In this document: in pieces, positions 7,377-53,198 of the stretch
How the letters are laid out: the number at the start of each line of letters is the position of its first letter
Position numbering within the stretch: the first letter of the stretch is position 1
Assembly (NCBI RefSeq): GCF_004368405.1
Contig: NZ_SBJH01000042.1
Location: forward strand, 1-64,000
DNA: 64,000 bases
Direction of reading: 5' to 3'
DNA from: Olivibacter sp. XZL3
Lineage (GTDB): Bacteria; Bacteroidota; Bacteroidia; Sphingobacteriales; Sphingobacteriaceae
Translations under genes and position numbers: made by a program
The notes under the pieces: model-generated
The model's database searches: none
What the model saw: the letters and a program-made list of their open reading frames with translations, nothing else
What the model was told of the DNA's origin: nothing

Positions 7377-8243
7377 ATGAACGTATTAATTACCGGACTA
7401 AACAATTATTTGGGAAAGAGATTGGCATGGCATCTAGCTGACGAAGGGTATATGACTTCTTGCTTAGTGCGGAACGAACAACATTTTTTAGAAACAACAG
7501 CAGAACATCCTAACATATCCGTAATACGTGGAGACCTCGTACGCGAACGTTATACGCCCGCTATTACGGAGCAAGTCGATGTAGCGATTTACCTCAGTCA
7601 GGACTCTGCCGAATGGAATGAGCAATATAAAAATCTGGAGCTCTTATCCCTGATCAATTTCATTAAACAAGCGCGGAGGAGCAACAGTCAGCAACTTATT
7701 TACATCACGCGTTTACGTACGCCTTTCATCAAGGAAGTCCAGCAGATTCTGATAGACAGCTATATCTCTTATACCATTGTGAGGATCAGTAACATCATTG
7801 GAAAAGATTCCATTTTGATGGAAATGATGAAAAGGATCTCCTCAAGACTCGTCATCTTTGCCAATCAACGCTTGGTCAAAATGCGGGCACAACCCATTGC
7901 TTTGCAGGATTTACTGACTTATTTAAGCTTCATTGTGCTCAATCCGGCGGCTTTCAATCAGAGTTTCGACATTGGTGGACCGGATATTCTCAGCTATAAA
8001 GAGATGCTGAATGCGTACATGAAACAGATCCACGTCAATAAACCGATCATTTCCTTACCAAGTTTGAACAACAGACTTTCGGCTTTTTTCATCAGTCTCA
8101 CCACCGGAGTAAGTGTCTCTACTGCCCGGGCTTTCGGAGAGAACATTACACAGGACCTCTTGTGCGAAAACAATCACATCCATGATTTGTTCCCTCATGA
8201 ATGCCTAACATTTGAACAGGCGCTCAAAGCCGCGCTTGCTTAA
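7377..8243 (+). CDS. NAD(P)-binding epimerase/NmrA-like Rossmann protein
   Basis: A 288-residue protein with an N-terminal dinucleotide-binding turn (NVLITGLNNYLGKRLAWHLA) and an extended-SDR layout: DVAIYLSQ near 65, QQLIYITRL near 110, then SYTIVRISNIIG. The classical Tyr-x-x-x-Lys catalytic pair is not evident, so it may be an atypical SDR (NmrA-like) rather than an active epimerase. It is followed 16 bases later by a second Rossmann protein of the same broad class, so the two probably form a small operon. Substrate unknown. Confidence 0.8.
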   Translation: MNVLITGLNNYLGKRLAWHLADEGYMTSCLVRNEQHFLETTAEHPNISVIRGDLVRERYTPAITEQVDVAIYLSQDSAEWNEQYKNLELLSLINFIKQARRSNSQQLIYITRLRTPFIKEVQQILIDSYISYTIVRISNIIGKDSILMEMMKRISSRLVIFANQRLVKMRAQPIALQDLLTYLSFIVLNPAAFNQSFDIGGPDILSYKEMLNAYMKQIHVNKPIISLPSLNNRLSAFFISLTTGVSVSTARAFGENITQDLLCENNHIHDLFPHECLTFEQALKAALA

Positions 8244-8259
8244 CGTTAATTGCGAACAC

Positions 8260-9180
8260 ATGAAGAAAATATTAATCACCGGCGCATCGGGCATGGTTGG
8301 CAGGCACTTAACCGCAGCACTTACAAAAAAAGGATATATCGTCCACGCCCTTGTGCGAAAACCGCACCCCGATACGCAACAAGTAAAGTACTTTACCTGG
8401 GATGTCGAAAAGGGCATCATCGATAAAGTCTGCGTAGAGGACGTAGATGCCGTCGTTCACCTTGCCGGCGAAAATATCGGCAAGAAACCCTGGAGTAAGC
8501 GGGTACGAACGCATATACTCAAAAGCAGAACCGACAGTATAGGCCTCATCTATAAATTATTGGCAACAGTAGACCACCAGGTGAAGCAGGTCGTGTCGGC
8601 CTCCGGCACAGGTTATTACGGAAGTAAACGTGACGAATTATTGAATGAAGACCGTGTTCCGGCGGACGATTTTTTAGGACAGACCTGTTTTGCCTGGGAG
8701 ATGGCGGTGGCCAAGGGACGTTCGCTCGGATTGCGCACCCTTTCTTTAAGAAGCGGTGTTATTTTCGCCAAAGATCAGGGAATTCTTCCCAAATTGGCAG
8801 CTCCAATTAAATTGGGACTGGGCGCAACCTTGGGAAGTGGCAAACAATACCTCTCGTGGATCCATTTGGACGATGCTGTGGCTATGTACATCTACGCATT
8901 AGAACACCCGGCCCTGCAAGGTGTATACAATATGGTTGCACCGGAACCCGTCACCAATAAACAGCTCAACCGGCAGATCGCTAAAATATTGGGAAAACCA
9001 CTTTGGTTGCCGCCGGTACCCGCTTTTGTATTAAGATCGATCTTAGGAAAGATGAGCGACTTATTGTTGGACAGCACGCGCGTGTCGCCTGAAAAAATTA
9101 TCAATACCGGATTCCGCTTTCAATACCCAACGCTGGAGGCGGCTTTAAAAAATATTTTCAGCAAGGAAGATCAAACCTAA
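8260..9180 (+). CDS. TIGR01777-family epimerase-like protein (YfcH type)
   Basis: A 306-residue atypical SDR. It shows TGASGMVGRHL at residues 7-17, the family hallmark DAVVHLAGENIGKKPWSKR, and SASGTGYYG in the position of the active-site region. The C-terminal DUF1731-like part (PPVPAFVLRSILGKM) is intact. An in-frame ATG-less upstream extension overlaps the previous gene; the ATG at 8260 was chosen because MKKILITGA is the conserved family N-terminus. It converges on an FKBP gene with only 16 bases between stops. Physiological substrate is not known for the family. Confidence 0.9.
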   Translation: MKKILITGASGMVGRHLTAALTKKGYIVHALVRKPHPDTQQVKYFTWDVEKGIIDKVCVEDVDAVVHLAGENIGKKPWSKRVRTHILKSRTDSIGLIYKLLATVDHQVKQVVSASGTGYYGSKRDELLNEDRVPADDFLGQTCFAWEMAVAKGRSLGLRTLSLRSGVIFAKDQGILPKLAAPIKLGLGATLGSGKQYLSWIHLDDAVAMYIYALEHPALQGVYNMVAPEPVTNKQLNRQIAKILGKPLWLPPVPAFVLRSILGKMSDLLLDSTRVSPEKIINTGFRFQYPTLEAALKNIFSKEDQT

Positions 9181-47291: not shown

Positions 47292-47405
47292 ATGCTTAAA
47301 GGCATATCTCAACCGTTTTCGAATACTTCTATTTATAACTACTAATAATATTAGCTTTTTCATTTATTTTATGTAAGTTTAATTTCTAATCACTTGATAA
47401 ATACA

Positions 47406-48320
47406 ATGACGGAAAATTCATCAAGACGTATAGATGACCCCTTGTGGAAATCTATTTTAGAACAGACCTTTTCTTATTTTTTGCAGTTTATCTTTACGGA
47501 TGCGGATGATGTCTTTGATCTCGCTAAGCCTTTCGATTATCTGGATAAGGAGTTTGAATCCTTGTTTCCCCCCGAGACTAGTGGCAAGGGGGTACGCTAT
47601 GTAGACAAACTGGTTAAGGTCTTTCTCAAAGACGGCCGAGAGCAGTTTGTGCTTTGTCACGTAGAGGTTCAGTCCAGCAAAGGCAGGGGCGATCTGGCTG
47701 AACGCATGTTCCAGTATTTTTACAAAATTTCAGATCGCTATAAAGTACCCGTTACAGCTATTGCCATCCTTGCCGATGGCAATAAGAACTACCGGCCGCA
47801 GGCGTATATACAGGAGTTCATGGGCACGAGCCTGCGGTATTCTTTCAATAGCTATAAAATCCTGGACCAGGACGAATCGATGTTACGGAGCAACACCAAC
47901 CCCTTTGCCGTGGTGGTGCTTACAGCACTATTGGCTATTACGAGACGGAATGCCGATGACGACGAATTAAAAAATATTAAGCATAGCCTGTACGATGAGA
48001 TGATGGCACGAAATATGAGTAAATATAGCAGGCAAGGTATTTACGACTTTTTGTCGCATTATGTTCGTTTTCAAAATAAAGAAAATTTCTATATCTTTGA
48101 AAAAGAGGTTGAAACAAAACTAGGAAGGAGCAATATCATGGGAACAAGAGAATATTTATTGGATAAGGCGGAGAAGCAAGGATTGGAAAGAGGAATGGAA
48201 AGAGGCAAGCGAGAAGAAGCCATTGCCATCGCCCGGGAACTAAAGAAAGAAGGGCTTTCCATCGAGTTCATTGCTAAAACCACCAAGTTAACGACCGAAG
48301 AAGTCGAAAAACTCAAATAG
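47406..48320 (+). CDS. Rpn-type PD-(D/E)XK nuclease family protein (transposase-related)
   Basis: A 304-residue protein. The nuclease-like core (about 15-140) has SILEQTFSYFLQFIF, LDKEFESLFP, and the putative catalytic HVEVQSSK with VDKLVKVFLKDG upstream, as in the recombination-promoting nuclease / PD-(D/E)XK transposase-family proteins. The middle is helical. The last ~50 residues have an Arg/Glu-rich coiled coil (GLERGMERGKREEAIAIARE) and a resolvase-like helical end (LSIEFIAKTTKLTTEEVEKL), both common in this family. ATG 47406 was chosen over the in-frame TTG at 47394. It has no inverted terminal repeats and is flanked by a 58-bp direct repeat. Confidence 0.85.
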   Translation: MTENSSRRIDDPLWKSILEQTFSYFLQFIFTDADDVFDLAKPFDYLDKEFESLFPPETSGKGVRYVDKLVKVFLKDGREQFVLCHVEVQSSKGRGDLAERMFQYFYKISDRYKVPVTAIAILADGNKNYRPQAYIQEFMGTSLRYSFNSYKILDQDESMLRSNTNPFAVVVLTALLAITRRNADDDELKNIKHSLYDEMMARNMSKYSRQGIYDFLSHYVRFQNKENFYIFEKEVETKLGRSNIMGTREYLLDKAEKQGLERGMERGKREEAIAIARELKKEGLSIEFIAKTTKLTTEEVEKLK

Positions 48321-48499: not shown

Positions 48500-48557
48500 G
48501 CCTATGGCGTAAAGCTTAAAAACTTATAACCTATAACTGGCCTACTGCCTACAGCTT
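48500..48557 (+). repeat. 58-bp perfect direct repeat, right copy
   Basis: Identical to 47234-47291. Its last base is the first base of the panD stop codon on the opposite strand. The preceding 48452-48499 is further degenerate family C sequence. Confidence 0.9.
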
Positions 48558-48904
48558 TATACCAATTTGTTGTTATGATCAGGGAAGACCAGAATAGGTT
48601 CGTACTTTTTAGCTTCTTCGATAGGAAGTTGGCAATAAGAGATAATGATAACCACGTCACCCACCTGCACCAGGCGTGCCGCGGCACCGTTTAAACAGAC
48701 CATACCCGAACCTCGCTCGCCCTTTATTACATAGGTTTCAAAGCGAGCTCCGTTATTGTTGTTTACAATCTGGACTTTTTCATTCGGAATAATATTCGCC
48801 GCCTCTATTAAATCCTCGTCAATCGTAATACTTCCCACGTAATTGAGTTCAGCTTGAGTGACCTTTACGCGATGAATTTTTGATTTCAACACCTCGATAA
48901 TCAT
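48557..48904 (-). CDS. panD: Aspartate 1-decarboxylase proenzyme
   Basis: Makes beta-alanine for pantothenate; self-cleaves to form a pyruvoyl group. Gly24-Ser25 in NYVGSITID is the cleavage site. [25 protein letters not shown] and the catalytic Tyr58-equivalent region are present. 115 residues, complete. The -7 box is only five bases from the ATG, suggesting a leaderless mRNA. The neighbouring panC lies upstream on the same strand, 218 bases away. Confidence 0.97.
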
Positions 48905-49122: not shown

Positions 49123-49971
49123 TTACAGCAATATATTATCAATTAGGCGAACCCCTCCCACCCAGGCGGCCAATATAACCACCAAAGGCCTTATATTTTG
49201 TTGCTCCGGTCCTATTTCCGTCAGATCGCGCGGATTGCAGACCGCAAAATATTCCAGTTCGACCCCCTTTGCTTGTTGAAGGAACCGAAGTGCTTCCTCT
49301 TTTGCTTGCTGTGGAGATTCACCTTGTTCCACGGCTTGCTTCACCATAAACAAGGCTTTCGAAAGCGCCAGTGCCTGTGTTCTCGCACGCGGAGAAAGGC
49401 GCACATTGCGGGAGCTTTTCGCCAGTCCATCCGCATCCCTTATCGTGTCTACTATTTCGAGCCGAACAGGTAAAGCGAGTTTATCTACCATCAATTGAAT
49501 GACCATGCATTGCTGAAAATCTTTCTGTCCAAAAAAGGCAATGTTTGGCTTTACGATGTGAAAGAGCTTATTCACAATTTGGGTGACTCCCTGGTAATGT
49601 CCCGGTCTTTTCGCTCCTTCCCAAATTTTATCCAGCTGCCCCAGGTCAAAAGACCAAGCCTCTTCATCCGAAGGATACATTTCCCCCACAGTCGGGAGGA
49701 ATAGCACATCACAGCCGGCTGCTTCGAGAAGCGCTATATCTTTTTCAATGGGTCGCGGATACTTTTCTAAATCCGCGGGATCGTTAAACTGCGTGGGGTT
49801 TACGAATATACTGCAAACGCTTATCGATGTCGTGCTTTTTGCCCGTTCGATCAAGGCTAAATGCCCTTCATGGAGGGCACCCATGGTCGGCACAAAACCG
49901 ATTGTTTTACCAGCCGAGCGAAACGCTGATAGATGAGCTTCCAGCGCATTTTTAGTCGTAAATGTTTCCAA
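49123..49971 (-). CDS. panC: Pantoate--beta-alanine ligase (pantothenate synthetase)
   Basis: Joins pantoate and beta-alanine with ATP. 282 residues. Conserved FVPTMGALHEGHLALI, VSIFVNPTQFNDPADLEKYPR, FGQKDFQQ and the KMSKS-like KSSRN (SSRNVRLS). The start is TTG at 49971: the peptide METFTTKNALEAHL is the standard N-terminus and no ATG is in frame. Divergent from the GlgA-like gene, with a 241-bp spacer; a TTG-N20-TATATTTG promoter points the other way. Confidence 0.96.
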   Translation of the reverse strand: METFTTKNALEAHLSAFRSAGKTIGFVPTMGALHEGHLALIERAKSTTSISVCSIFVNPTQFNDPADLEKYPRPIEKDIALLEAAGCDVLFLPTVGEMYPSDEEAWSFDLGQLDKIWEGAKRPGHYQGVTQIVNKLFHIVKPNIAFFGQKDFQQCMVIQLMVDKLALPVRLEIVDTIRDADGLAKSSRNVRLSPRARTQALALSKALFMVKQAVEQGESPQQAKEEALRFLQQAKGVELEYFAVCNPRDLTEIGPEQQNIRPLVVILAAWVGGVRLIDNILL

Positions 49972-50044: not shown

Positions 50045-50075
50045 TTGATATATCATAAGATAATGCGTATATTTG
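50045..50075 (+). promoter_or_regulatory. Promoter of the GlgA-like gene
   Basis: TTG (50045-50047), 20 bases, TATATTTG (50068-50075). It gives an untranslated leader of roughly 130 bases before the ATG at 50213. Confidence 0.7.
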
Positions 50076-50212: not shown

Positions 50213-51037
50213 ATGGCAAAAACGAAGATATTGTACATTACCCACGAGATGTCGCCTTTCCTCGAACTAAGTAAAATTTCTGAGATAACAAGAGAGTTAC
50301 CCCAGGCCATGCAGGAAAAAGGGTTTGAAATACGGATTTTGATGCCTCGGTTTGGCAACATTAACGAGCGCAGAAACCGTTTACATGAAGTTATAAGGCT
50401 TTCGGGTATGAATATTGTAGTGGACAATAACGACAACCCTCTTATCATCAAAGTTGCATCCATCCCAGCTGCCCGCATGCAAGTTTACTTTTTGGATAAC
50501 GAAGAGTACTTCCAACGTAAACACATATTTACCGACAAAGAAGGCAAATTCTTTAAAGACAACGACGAACGGGCTATCTTTTTCTGTAAAGGCGCATTGG
50601 AAACTGTTAAAAAGTTAGGATGGTCTCCTGATGTGGTGCATTGCCATGGCTGGATGACGTCCCTGGTACCCGCGTATGTAAAAACGGCTTACAAGGATGA
50701 TCCAACCTTTAAGGATACCAAAATCATTTATTCGCTATATGCGGACAAATTTGAGCATACGCTAAATGAGCGTTTTGCAGATAAGGCCGTTATCGGAAAC
50801 ATGGACGCTAGCGCTTTATCAAGCTATGATTCGGCCGATTATTATGGCCTTTACCGTGGCGCCCTTCATTATACAGATGCCATCGTTTTGTCTGAAGAGA
50901 ACATCGATGAAAAACTGTTAAATATTGTTAAAAACAGCGAAATTCCGGTAACCGACTGCAGAAATGATGCAGAATTCGAAAATTATTCCAACCTTTACGA
51001 GCAATTTTCCAATGAAGAATTGGAAACTGTGGCTTAG
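50213..51037 (+). CDS. Glycogen/starch synthase N-terminal-domain protein, probably non-catalytic
   Basis: A 274-residue protein resembling only the GT5 starch-synthase N-terminal Rossmann domain: KTKILYITHEMSPFLELSKI, FEIRILMPRFGNINERRN, VQVYFLDNEEYFQRK-type and DVVHCHGWMTSLVPAY. Active GlgA has KTGGL after the first strand; here that stretch reads ELSKISEI, and the C-terminal GT-B half is absent (usual length ~470-500). So it probably is not a glucan synthase. ATG 50213 is preferred over an in-frame TTG at 50207. It is divergent from panC and upstream of DUF4270, an arrangement I recall for this clade. Confidence 0.82.
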   Translation: MAKTKILYITHEMSPFLELSKISEITRELPQAMQEKGFEIRILMPRFGNINERRNRLHEVIRLSGMNIVVDNNDNPLIIKVASIPAARMQVYFLDNEEYFQRKHIFTDKEGKFFKDNDERAIFFCKGALETVKKLGWSPDVVHCHGWMTSLVPAYVKTAYKDDPTFKDTKIIYSLYADKFEHTLNERFADKAVIGNMDASALSSYDSADYYGLYRGALHYTDAIVLSEENIDEKLLNIVKNSEIPVTDCRNDAEFENYSNLYEQFSNEELETVA

Positions 51038-51143: not shown

Positions 51144-52685
51144 ATGAAGTATTATACTCGAGACTTATTGACACTGTTGATAAGTCTCTTTATTTTAAGT
51201 AGTTGCAAAAACCCAACAGGAATAGGATTAGACAACAATCCCGGAGATTCGTTTTATGGCACGCTGAATGACACGGTTACGTTAAAAACCGTGACCTTGC
51301 GTGATGATAGTGCCCGGAGTGTACCCCGTCAAGCCAACAGCAGCAGCAATATTCCGGCCATTAACATCAATCAACTTCCGTTTGGTTATTATAATGATCC
51401 CGTTTTCGGAGAGACACAAGCCAACGTAGCACTTGCCGTTTTACGTCCTGAAAGCGGCGATATACGCCTGCCTGAAAATGCCCAGATTGATTCGGCGGTG
51501 CTTGTTATCCGCTATGGAAGTTCCTTCGTGGGGGATTCGGTTTCTTCGGTTTACCAAGTGAACGTGAAGCAACTGGATGAGGTTTATGCACCAAACACGG
51601 TGTACTATAGCACTAAAGCGTGGAATGTGAAAAGCGAGGAAGTCGCACGTAAAGAAATTCGTCATTTCAACCTGAAAGATAGCATCAGCGTCATTGTAAG
51701 AGGAAGCACCGGACAGGATAGCACCGTTAGACGAGGCCCAGAGCTACGTTTACGTTTAAACAACGCCTTTATCAGCAACCTTTTATCGCACACACTTGAT
51801 TCGGCGACGGTGAACTCGGAAGCAGGTTTTCTAAATCACGCCAAAGGCCTTTACCTTACGGTAGATAAGAGTGTACAGCAGGGTGTAGGCGGCTTGGCGA
51901 CATTAAGTCCTAATGGTCAGCTCACCTCTAGCGGATCGAGCACACCCAATTTCATGGAAGTGACCTATCGTGTTCCGGATAGCGAAGGAGGTACAGATAC
52001 TTTAACGAAGCTTTTCCCTATTCCGCTACCGGCAAACAGCAGCACCGGCTCGCCTTTTACGTACATGACGGCCAGCGTGGAGCACAACTTTTCACCGGTC
52101 ATTCAAAATCAGTTAGCGAACGCCAATGTAAACCAAACCACGGTTTATGCACAAGCGATGGGCGGCCTCAGGACGAGAGTCTCTTTTCCGTATATCGATC
52201 AACTGAAGGGAAAGAAAATTGCGGTTAACCGGGCAGAACTGGTGGTCTATGTAGAAGATGACAACAACGCCTCTGCGCGTCCTGCTCCTCGACTAACCTT
52301 ATATAGAAAAGACGTTGCCGGCAACAATCAGCCCATACCAGACGGCGATTCGCGTAGCGTACCAGATCCCAGGTCTCAATTCCCTAGTCTCGCAAACAGC
52401 GGTGCCGGTGCTTATGCCCTAGGTGGAATCTATGACGACAAGAACAAAAGGTATGTTTTTACGATGACTTCCTTTGTCCAAGATGTGATCTTAGGCAAAG
52501 TGCAGCAGTCAGACGTATATATCGCCCCCGTGTCGGAGACGCCGTCGCAGATGAATACCATACCGTTTTGGCCGGACATCACGACGCCGAGCAGCGTTGT
52601 TCTAAAAGGTTATAACCCCGAAGATGCGCAGGCACGAAATGAAATCCGCACCAAACTGAACATTTATTATACCGAATTGGATTAA
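51144..52685 (+). CDS. DUF4270 family lipoprotein
   Basis: A 513-residue exported lipoprotein: MKYYTRDLLTLLISLFILSS with lipobox LSSC at about residue 21. Body: large beta-rich region with NPGDSFYGTLNDTVTLKTVT, DPVFGETQANVALAV, AQIDSAVLVIRYG and IDQLKGKKIAVNRAELVVYV, all characteristic of DUF4270. Function not known; the outer face of the cell envelope is likely. It follows the GlgA-like gene by 106 bases and precedes ispF by 33 bases. Confidence 0.88.
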   Translation: MKYYTRDLLTLLISLFILSSCKNPTGIGLDNNPGDSFYGTLNDTVTLKTVTLRDDSARSVPRQANSSSNIPAININQLPFGYYNDPVFGETQANVALAVLRPESGDIRLPENAQIDSAVLVIRYGSSFVGDSVSSVYQVNVKQLDEVYAPNTVYYSTKAWNVKSEEVARKEIRHFNLKDSISVIVRGSTGQDSTVRRGPELRLRLNNAFISNLLSHTLDSATVNSEAGFLNHAKGLYLTVDKSVQQGVGGLATLSPNGQLTSSGSSTPNFMEVTYRVPDSEGGTDTLTKLFPIPLPANSSTGSPFTYMTASVEHNFSPVIQNQLANANVNQTTVYAQAMGGLRTRVSFPYIDQLKGKKIAVNRAELVVYVEDDNNASARPAPRLTLYRKDVAGNNQPIPDGDSRSVPDPRSQFPSLANSGAGAYALGGIYDDKNKRYVFTMTSFVQDVILGKVQQSDVYIAPVSETPSQMNTIPFWPDITTPSSVVLKGYNPEDAQARNEIRTKLNIYYTELD

Positions 52686-52718: not shown

Positions 52719-53198
52719 ATGAAGATAAAAGTGGGCTTCGGCTTTGACGTACATCAATTGAAAGAAAACCACCCCTTTATTTTGGGGGGCGAAAAGATTG
52801 ATCACCACGCGGGTGCTTTTGGGCATTCGGATGCCGACGTACTCGTGCACGCTATTTGTGATGCGATATTAGGGGCAGCCAATTTAGAAGATATCGGCTA
52901 CCATTTTCCGAATACGGACCCGAAGTGGAAAGGCGTCAGTAGTTTGCTTCTATTGGAAGCATGTATCCAATTATTGAAAAGCAAAGGCTGGCAACTTGGT
53001 AACATCGATGCGATGTTGTGTTTGGAGGCTCCCAAAATAAAACCCTATATCCCGGCAATGAAGCAACACCTTGCGCAGTCCAGCGGCTTGGACGTGGAAG
53101 ACATCTCCATCAAAGCGACGACCAACGAGACCATGGGCTTCATTGGGAGAAAAGAAGGGGTGGTTGCCTATGCGGTGTGCTTGATTCAAAAACCTTAA
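52719..53198 (+). CDS. ispF: 2-C-methyl-D-erythritol 2,4-cyclodiphosphate synthase
   Basis: Non-mevalonate isoprenoid pathway step forming MEcPP. 159 residues. Zinc-site DVH (residues 10-12 in GFGFDVHQL), then HSDADVLVHAICDAILGAA, DIGYHFPNTDPKWKG, and the late TTNETMGFIGRKEGV signature. Complete and typical. In the same direction as DUF4270, with no terminator between. It ends 13 bases from the stop of a convergent small Cys-rich gene. Confidence 0.97.
   Translation: MKIKVGFGFDVHQLKENHPFILGGEKIDHHAGAFGHSDADVLVHAICDAILGAANLEDIGYHFPNTDPKWKGVSSLLLLEACIQLLKSKGWQLGNIDAMLCLEAPKIKPYIPAMKQHLAQSSGLDVEDISIKATTNETMGFIGRKEGVVAYAVCLIQKP

Follow-up and report, generated by a model that had tools for sequence, protein, structure and literature searches.

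The gene at positions 50213 to 51037 (plus strand) of the window, as we call the whole stretch of 64,000 nucleotides analysed here, raises the question of which function may be left to a glycogen synthase homologue that comprises hardly more than its N-terminal domain. The preliminary description of this locus had claimed a complete gene for a GlgA-like N-domain protein devoid of both the KTGGL motif and the C-terminal half, which is borne out. The open reading frame extends over 274 codons from an ATG start to a TAG stop and encodes a GT5 N-domain-only protein with a pI of 5.2, referred to as sGlgA in the following. Its residues 5-230 match Pfam family PF08323 with an E value of 1.1e-53 (182.9 bits at a cut-off of 22.7), because of which a chance match appears out of the question. 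The Pfam scan detects no second GT-B domain (Glycos_transf_1) in sGlgA, unlike in the long relative L113, and the NCBIfam models of glgA remain far below their cut-offs (TIGR02095: 120.8 compared to 328.45; NF010698: 188.9 compared to 754). As stated before, the loop, in which residues 18-22 (ELSKI; 50264 to 50278, plus strand) take the place of KTGGL, reads PFLELSKISEI in the alignment, while GlgA features P-x-x-KTGGLADV at this site. Since no strongly hydrophobic stretch indicative of a signal peptide or a membrane helix is seen in the sequence, sGlgA is predicted to reside in the cytosol.

Structure prediction, proposed earlier as a check, indeed assigns a GT5 fold with a retained cross-over helix to sGlgA. 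The AlphaFold model (the better of the models, based on 66 sequences; pLDDT 93.0, pTM 0.91) has its best matches among starch and glycogen synthases, with a Z score of 28.3 for 6gne_A (rmsd 2.5, 251 aligned residues) and of 25.3 for E. coli GlgA, 2qzs (rmsd 2.6, 243 aligned residues). The match to 2qzs spans chain residues 1 to 477 including the last helix. Although full-length GT5 enzymes are about 200 residues longer than sGlgA, the aligned range reaches their very end, which places the last helix of sGlgA (residues 256-273; 50978 to 51031, plus strand) at the position of the GT-B cross-over helix while the second Rossmann domain is missing. As far as the model tells, this helix is the counterpart of the cross-over helix of GlgA. 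It carries a Y..LY..-like pattern, and the alignment reveals Y..LY..L at the C-termini of the long forms and a similar pattern in the short ones. When the C-terminal 24 residues of 14 long forms are used as a tail profile, 37 of the 116 tails of short forms score 3 bits or more, compared to 5 of 580 tails after shuffling and 1 of 546 other windows, a signal which is modest for the single protein yet clear across the set. In addition, [LFI]Y..[LIVFT] occurs within the last 30 residues of 66 out of 80 short forms compared to 14% upon shuffling. Because the C-terminal cross-over helix is retained, sGlgA looks like the product of an excision of the second GT-B domain. The initial reading as a plain loss of the C-terminal half holds for the absent second domain but not for the last helix.

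With the GT5 glycogen synthases (2qzs, 1rzu, 6gne) sGlgA shares the N-terminal Rossmann domain, the C-terminal cross-over helix and its descent. It differs from them in lacking the C-terminal donor domain, the KTGGL glycines, His161 and, in most copies, Asp137, and in not being tied to glgC. The residue counts refer to 116 rows of short forms, of which 80 stem from named loci, 30 from other loci including the window copy and 6 from other lineages; some species are possibly represented twice. Both KTGGL glycines are gone in all 116 rows. The column of Asp137, which like that of His161 is numbered as in E. coli GlgA, contains glycine in 89 rows, the window copy being one of them, and aspartate in 27, while His161 is retained in a single row. 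The first histidine of HxHDW (His143 in the window copy) is kept in 116 of 116 rows and the tryptophan (Trp147) in 113. Asp137 and His161 are both present in all 14 long rows. Apart from the full-length GlgA of the same genome, whose loop is KVGGL, there are 13 long rows, and 9 of these retain an intact KTGGL; four Chlorobi-like long rows show R[IT]S[AP]L at this site, and KTGGL is flagged near the start of 8 of 14 further long forms. The non-catalytic role suggested in the preliminary description gains good support from the loss of the glycines and of His161 as well as from the lack of a stand-alone C-half described below, while the interpretation given there is, as a whole, partly supported. 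On these grounds, sGlgA is almost certainly not a glycogen synthase and very probably not an enzyme at all.

The latter judgement depends on whether the missing half might be supplied by another gene. The only other PF08323 gene of the genome encodes a full-length GlgA (499-residue frame) and is located beside glgC on a different contig. That sGlgA might still act as a glycosyltransferase together with a C-domain supplied by another gene could be suspected from the invariance of one histidine at the cleft side of its N-domain and from the 25 Glycos_transf_1 matches which a PF00534 scan returns for the genome. All of these matches, however, lie in frames of at least 327 residues, i.e. of whole GT-B size. 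A search of 31 genomes reveals a strong GlgA-type C-half in 14 of them, exclusively inside frames of 473-515 residues, and weaker matches (E 4.4e-9 or worse) in frames of 287-686 residues, as is usual for generic glycosyltransferases; a 287-residue frame of G306 holds one weak match (E 2.4e-4). Hence, neither the scan of the own genome nor the 31 genomes offer any strong stand-alone half which might act as the complementing gene envisaged in the preliminary description. As the glycines and His161 are lost in addition, we regard a split enzyme as highly improbable. An accessory function in glycogen or alpha-glucan metabolism, with the N-domain binding glucan or priming or regulating another synthase, would be in line with the fold and ancestry of an acceptor-binding domain and with the conserved His143 and Trp147 columns near the old acceptor site. 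Yet, a strong glgC match (above 415 bits) is present in no more than 27 of the 60 near genomes, the other 33 showing nothing above 67 bits, and each of these 33 carries sGlgA, which amounts to 33 of 58 carriers without strong glgC. Likewise, sGlgA is kept in all 17 genomes, out of the 31 searched, that lack a strong GlgA-type C-half. As far as glgC and GlgA-type synthases are concerned, the absence of a strong glgC from so many carriers renders the accessory role unlikely.

The gene is widespread. A protein search over 296 genomes of the phylum yields a match in 294 of them, short and long forms taken together. All of the 60 nearest genomes show some match, and 58 possess a strong short form. 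In G302, one of the two exceptions, panC (68865-69689 on a contig of 69804 bp) leaves only 115 bp up to the contig end in the direction of the expected sGlgA, so that a true loss is unlikely; the assembly of the other, G308, is 71% complete. A second scan led to at least 592 confirmed relatives, the best 80 of which were kept as named loci. These 80 include Parapedobacter, Pedobacter, Mucilaginibacter, Sphingobacterium, Algoriphagus, Roseivirga, Emticicia and Dysgonomonas, the closest sGlgA among them being that of Parapedobacter (78% identity). The N-domain tree, built from 18 short and 14 long rows, puts the short forms on one side of a branch with a support of 100/99; its outgroup branch is very long and its root unsure. 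The simplest reading of this tree would be that the short form arose once. At 49 loci harbouring all three genes the mean pairwise identity amounts to 54% for sGlgA, 44% for PanC and 24% for the DUF4270 protein encoded next to it. In the first 15 close pairs encountered dN/dS ranges from 0.03 to 0.08 for sGlgA (with dS values of up to 2.8 and thus partly saturated), from 0.05 to 0.09 for PanC (where computable) and from 0.07 to 0.25 for the DUF4270 protein. The sGlgA gene is under strong purifying selection. A plain C-terminal truncation or a pseudogene is rejected on account of this low dN/dS, the conservation and the kept last helix. Conservation is best in the segment of residues about 44-98 (50342 to 50506, plus strand; on average 78.5% identical between pairs of the 49 loci) with its core GxINERRxRLHEVxRLSGxN. 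An I[NS]xR[KR]xRLHxVxRL-like stretch is common to sGlgA and the full-length GlgA homologues of the phylum (L113-L123, L125, L126, L137-L150), which, unlike sGlgA, consist of about 490 residues and two domains.

The preliminary description had placed the gene beside panC, panD and a DUF4270 gene, which is correct. Upstream, panC (49123 to 49971), divergent from sGlgA, and panD (48557 to 48904) are located on the minus strand, while downstream the DUF4270 gene (51144 to 52685) and, subsequent to it, ispF (YgbB; 52719 to 53198) are located on the plus strand. A further open reading frame of 308 residues with a TTG start (window 47394-48320) has no Pfam match at E 0.001 and presumably resembles an Rpn/PD-(D/E)XK transposase-type protein. 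As to the strong promoter formerly attributed to sGlgA, a promoter-like site, TTG-N20-TATATTTG, is present at 50045 to 50075 (plus strand) about 140 nt 5' of the ATG. It is a pattern match to the -33/-7 consensus of Bacteroidota. This pattern occurs within 300 nt upstream of the gene in 32 of 79 sGlgA relatives compared to 2% of shuffled stretches. The DUF4270 protein, which has a lipoprotein-like start (MKYYTRDLLTLLISLFILSSC), scores 142.3 bits at a Pfam cut-off of 27. A profile of its family (window protein and 20 relatives) matches the solved structure of BamH, 9n2d_C, over positions 25-442 of 442 with an E value of 6.7e-43. Since the score of the window protein is only 90.1 compared to the cut-off of 420 in the NCBIfam equivalog model BamH_fj, we file it, judging by these profiles, as a BamH homologue and not as an equivalog of the F. 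johnsoniae protein. A second DUF4270 gene of the same genome, located outside the window (G000:C93:166740-167975), possibly encodes a BamH2 like those of F. johnsoniae and B. thetaiotaomicron.

A conserved block of panC, the GlgA-like gene and DUF4270, as had been surmised, exists to a large extent. In the 80 named loci, i.e. the best 80 of at least 592, DUF4270 is found 69 times, in 68 cases directly after sGlgA and in L104 at a distance of 2.6 kb, and panC is found upstream on the opposite strand 61 times. Of the 11 loci without DUF4270, seven belong to Sphingobacterium and one to Arcticibacter svalbardensis; in the other three, L086, L094 and L103, the contig stops 342, 981 and 79 bp past sGlgA, respectively. 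In the stretches fetched around sGlgA, DUF4270 was found in none of the seven Sphingobacterium loci and not in A. svalbardensis. In the locus of the latter (L044), sGlgA is followed by a short open reading frame (7957-8397) which, by eye, has the look of a partial reverse transcriptase/intron maturase. Same-strand adjacency of sGlgA and DUF4270 is observed in 52 of the 56 near genomes in which both are listed (exceptions: G325, G315, G002, G314) and in 43 of 46 such genomes phylum-wide (exceptions: G002, G007, G019). No DUF4270 match is seen in G049 and G343, two further near genomes which carry sGlgA. Nothing in our analysis supports a functional tie between panC and sGlgA.

As PF14092 finds, at E 0.001, its target in only 46 of 138 genomes sampled phylum-wide, diverged BamH proteins outside the class of the window were sought by means of profiles and fetched loci. 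In 20 loci around distant short or long forms (lineage labels such as Chlorobi-like are assigned by inference) the DUF4270 profile matches the next lipoprotein seven times (L113, L122, L127-L130, L132). Six further loci (L114-L116, L118, L120, L121) reveal, by eye, a lipoprotein-like start after GlgA, mostly cut by the locus end, while a different gene follows in the Chlorobi-like loci L119, L123, L125 and L126, and L117, L124 and L131 gave no call. In L127 and L128 the lipoprotein gene is followed by BamG (256.4 and 243.1 bits, cut-off 250). Among the 138 genomes BamG exceeds this cut-off in 53, and any BamG match is present in 125. Outside the own class, 32 of 33 short-form genomes have it on the same strand no more than 6 kb downstream, the BamG match of the remaining one sitting at a contig end, and so do 37 of 71 long-form genomes; only for 43 of the latter is a BamG match listed, among them all of these 37. 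The other 28 long-form genomes all come from a single family, and 15 of these have weak BamG matches whose places are not listed. In the window's own class, BamG is found at this distance from sGlgA in none of 34 genomes. In 14 long-form loci picked for a nearby BamG, a gene with a lipoprotein-like start invariably lies between GlgA and BamG; eight of these middle genes match the DUF4270 profile, and six are judged by their place and their start. The BamG proteins of five picked loci, upon rescanning, all score below cut-off (156.9 to 236.4 bits). If 16 middle lipoproteins (from 13 of the 14 picked loci and from L113, L121 and L122) are combined into one profile, this profile and that of DUF4270 match with a probability of 99.7% over 369 columns. 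As the lipoprotein profile retrieves nothing from the PDB at E 0.1, the link of the long-form lipoproteins to BamH is based on this profile-profile comparison. Full-length homologues, like sGlgA, precede BamH and BamG in many lineages. Since BamG lies after short as well as long GlgA homologues and the middle lipoproteins match DUF4270, the order GlgA-BamH-BamG probably represents the ancestral state and predates the domain loss.

Two further observations concern the long forms. In the Chlorobi-like family, represented by 28 of the 138 genomes, no strong BamG match occurs in any, and the four members fetched keep Asp137 and His161. Moreover, the full-length homologues, in contrast to sGlgA, are often followed by a HAD phosphatase gene of GmhB-like look (L113-L121, L126, L139, L140, L143, L145-L150), in many cases before BamH; among the 14 picked loci it is present in 9. 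The label was checked in L113, L121 and L145 only, where the scores are a little to well below the curated cut-offs. This neighbour possibly points to ADP-heptose.

The products of the sGlgA neighbours have homologues in the outer-membrane assembly machine (BAM) of Bacteroidota, the main texts on which (PMC12611786, PMC12578637) describe BamH and BamG as outer-membrane proteins, BamH being a surface subunit, essential in F. johnsoniae though not in B. thetaiotaomicron. BamH of the latter is Bt4306, whose locus number adjoins that of BT_4307, a "putative glycogen synthase". BamH of F. johnsoniae is Fjoh_0823, and the fjoh_0824 promoter is one of two used for inducible constructs in the bamH depletion system; going by its locus number, Fjoh_0824 would be the sGlgA gene. 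Since these main texts never name the gene product (neither "glycogen" nor "starch synthase" occurs in them), they do not report sGlgA as a BAM component, although Extended Data Fig. 3a of PMC12611786, on the genomic organisation of bam genes, may show it as a neighbour. In further papers, BT_4307 is cited as indicating glycogen storage (PMC10797578), a "glycogen synthase" of P. gingivalis, possibly the homologue of sGlgA, is listed under positive selection (PMC10394638), and one published sentence calls a protein family, very probably that of sGlgA, conserved, with no word on anatomy, function, age or neighbourhood. The literature searched, to which most subscription papers and all bioRxiv preprints do not belong, contains no knock-out, essentiality or binding study of sGlgA; DUF4270 appears in one paper and in none together with "glycogen synthase". 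No mention of the bam linkage or of the excised domain was found in print there. The homology of the DUF4270 protein to BamH, the probably older GlgA-BamH(-BamG) linkage, the apparent excision and the spread within the phylum had also been missed by the preliminary description.

Taken together, the following course of events may be envisaged. A full-length GT5 ancestor would have lost its whole donor-binding C-terminal Rossmann domain, probably once in the ancestor of the short-form lineages, while retaining the acceptor-side N-domain and the closing cross-over helix. The phosphate-binding glycines and the active-site histidine would have been lost as well, leaving sGlgA on its own unable to make glycogen. 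In the cytosol, the protein would then most likely bind a ligand or serve as a scaffold. Because the short forms and many long forms are followed by bamH (and, outside the own class, in many cases by bamG), the target of the protein may be sought in outer-membrane biogenesis, a tie which we consider probable. By a somewhat narrower preference, we favour a pseudo-glycosyltransferase acting as a cytosolic ligand-binding or scaffold protein in this process, and, given its placement next to bamH and bamG and its strict conservation, our best guess is that it regulates envelope assembly or serves as a scaffold in it. That the old cleft senses a sugar, a nucleotide-sugar or another small ligand and thereby tunes envelope assembly is a guess we offer with considerable reserve. 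Even more speculatively, an ancestral operon of glgA-like, gmhB-like, bamH and bamG genes might have coupled a sugar-nucleotide enzyme with the assembly of the outer membrane; in the short forms the enzyme, cut down to a cytosolic sensor, would match outer-membrane protein assembly to the supply of an envelope sugar (for instance an ADP-heptose or ADP-glucose product), a scenario which as a whole is rather improbable.

Some observations run counter to a tie with BAM, for which gene neighbourhood provides only indirect evidence. As BamH is extracellular and sGlgA predicted to be cytosolic, direct contact between both is not expected. Sphingobacterium and A. svalbardensis keep sGlgA without DUF4270 at the locus, BamG is not near it in the own class, and another gene follows GlgA in the Chlorobi-like loci. 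The protein might, hence, be a conserved housekeeping protein unrelated to BAM, with the old gene order preserved by co-transcription or inertia. Its retention where bamH does not adjoin, its stronger conservation compared to BamH and the likewise frequent adjacency of panC, which has no clear link to it, fit this explanation, but the pairing with BamH (and, outside the class, BamG) spans short and long forms of many families and thereby goes beyond the usual decay of gene order, wherefore we give the housekeeping reading the smaller though by no means negligible chance. A corrinoid- or other cofactor-binding protein comes into consideration since BT_4307 is one of 16 proteins which a B12 photo-probe enriched in each of the two screens reported in PMC8941943 (log2 fold change 2.61 and 1.05). 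As the same list also contains aspartokinase and trigger factor, for which no B12 use is stated, the capture of BT_4307 may be unspecific, and we attach a very low probability to this function.

A gene widespread in Bacteroidota is annotated as glycogen synthase and has, in PMC10797578, been read as a marker of glycogen storage, whereas according to the present data its product on its own cannot be such an enzyme. Its linkage to bamH and bamG, which probably predates the domain loss, provides a concrete lead to its role and makes sGlgA a candidate cytosolic partner or regulator of the recently described BAM system of Bacteroidota.
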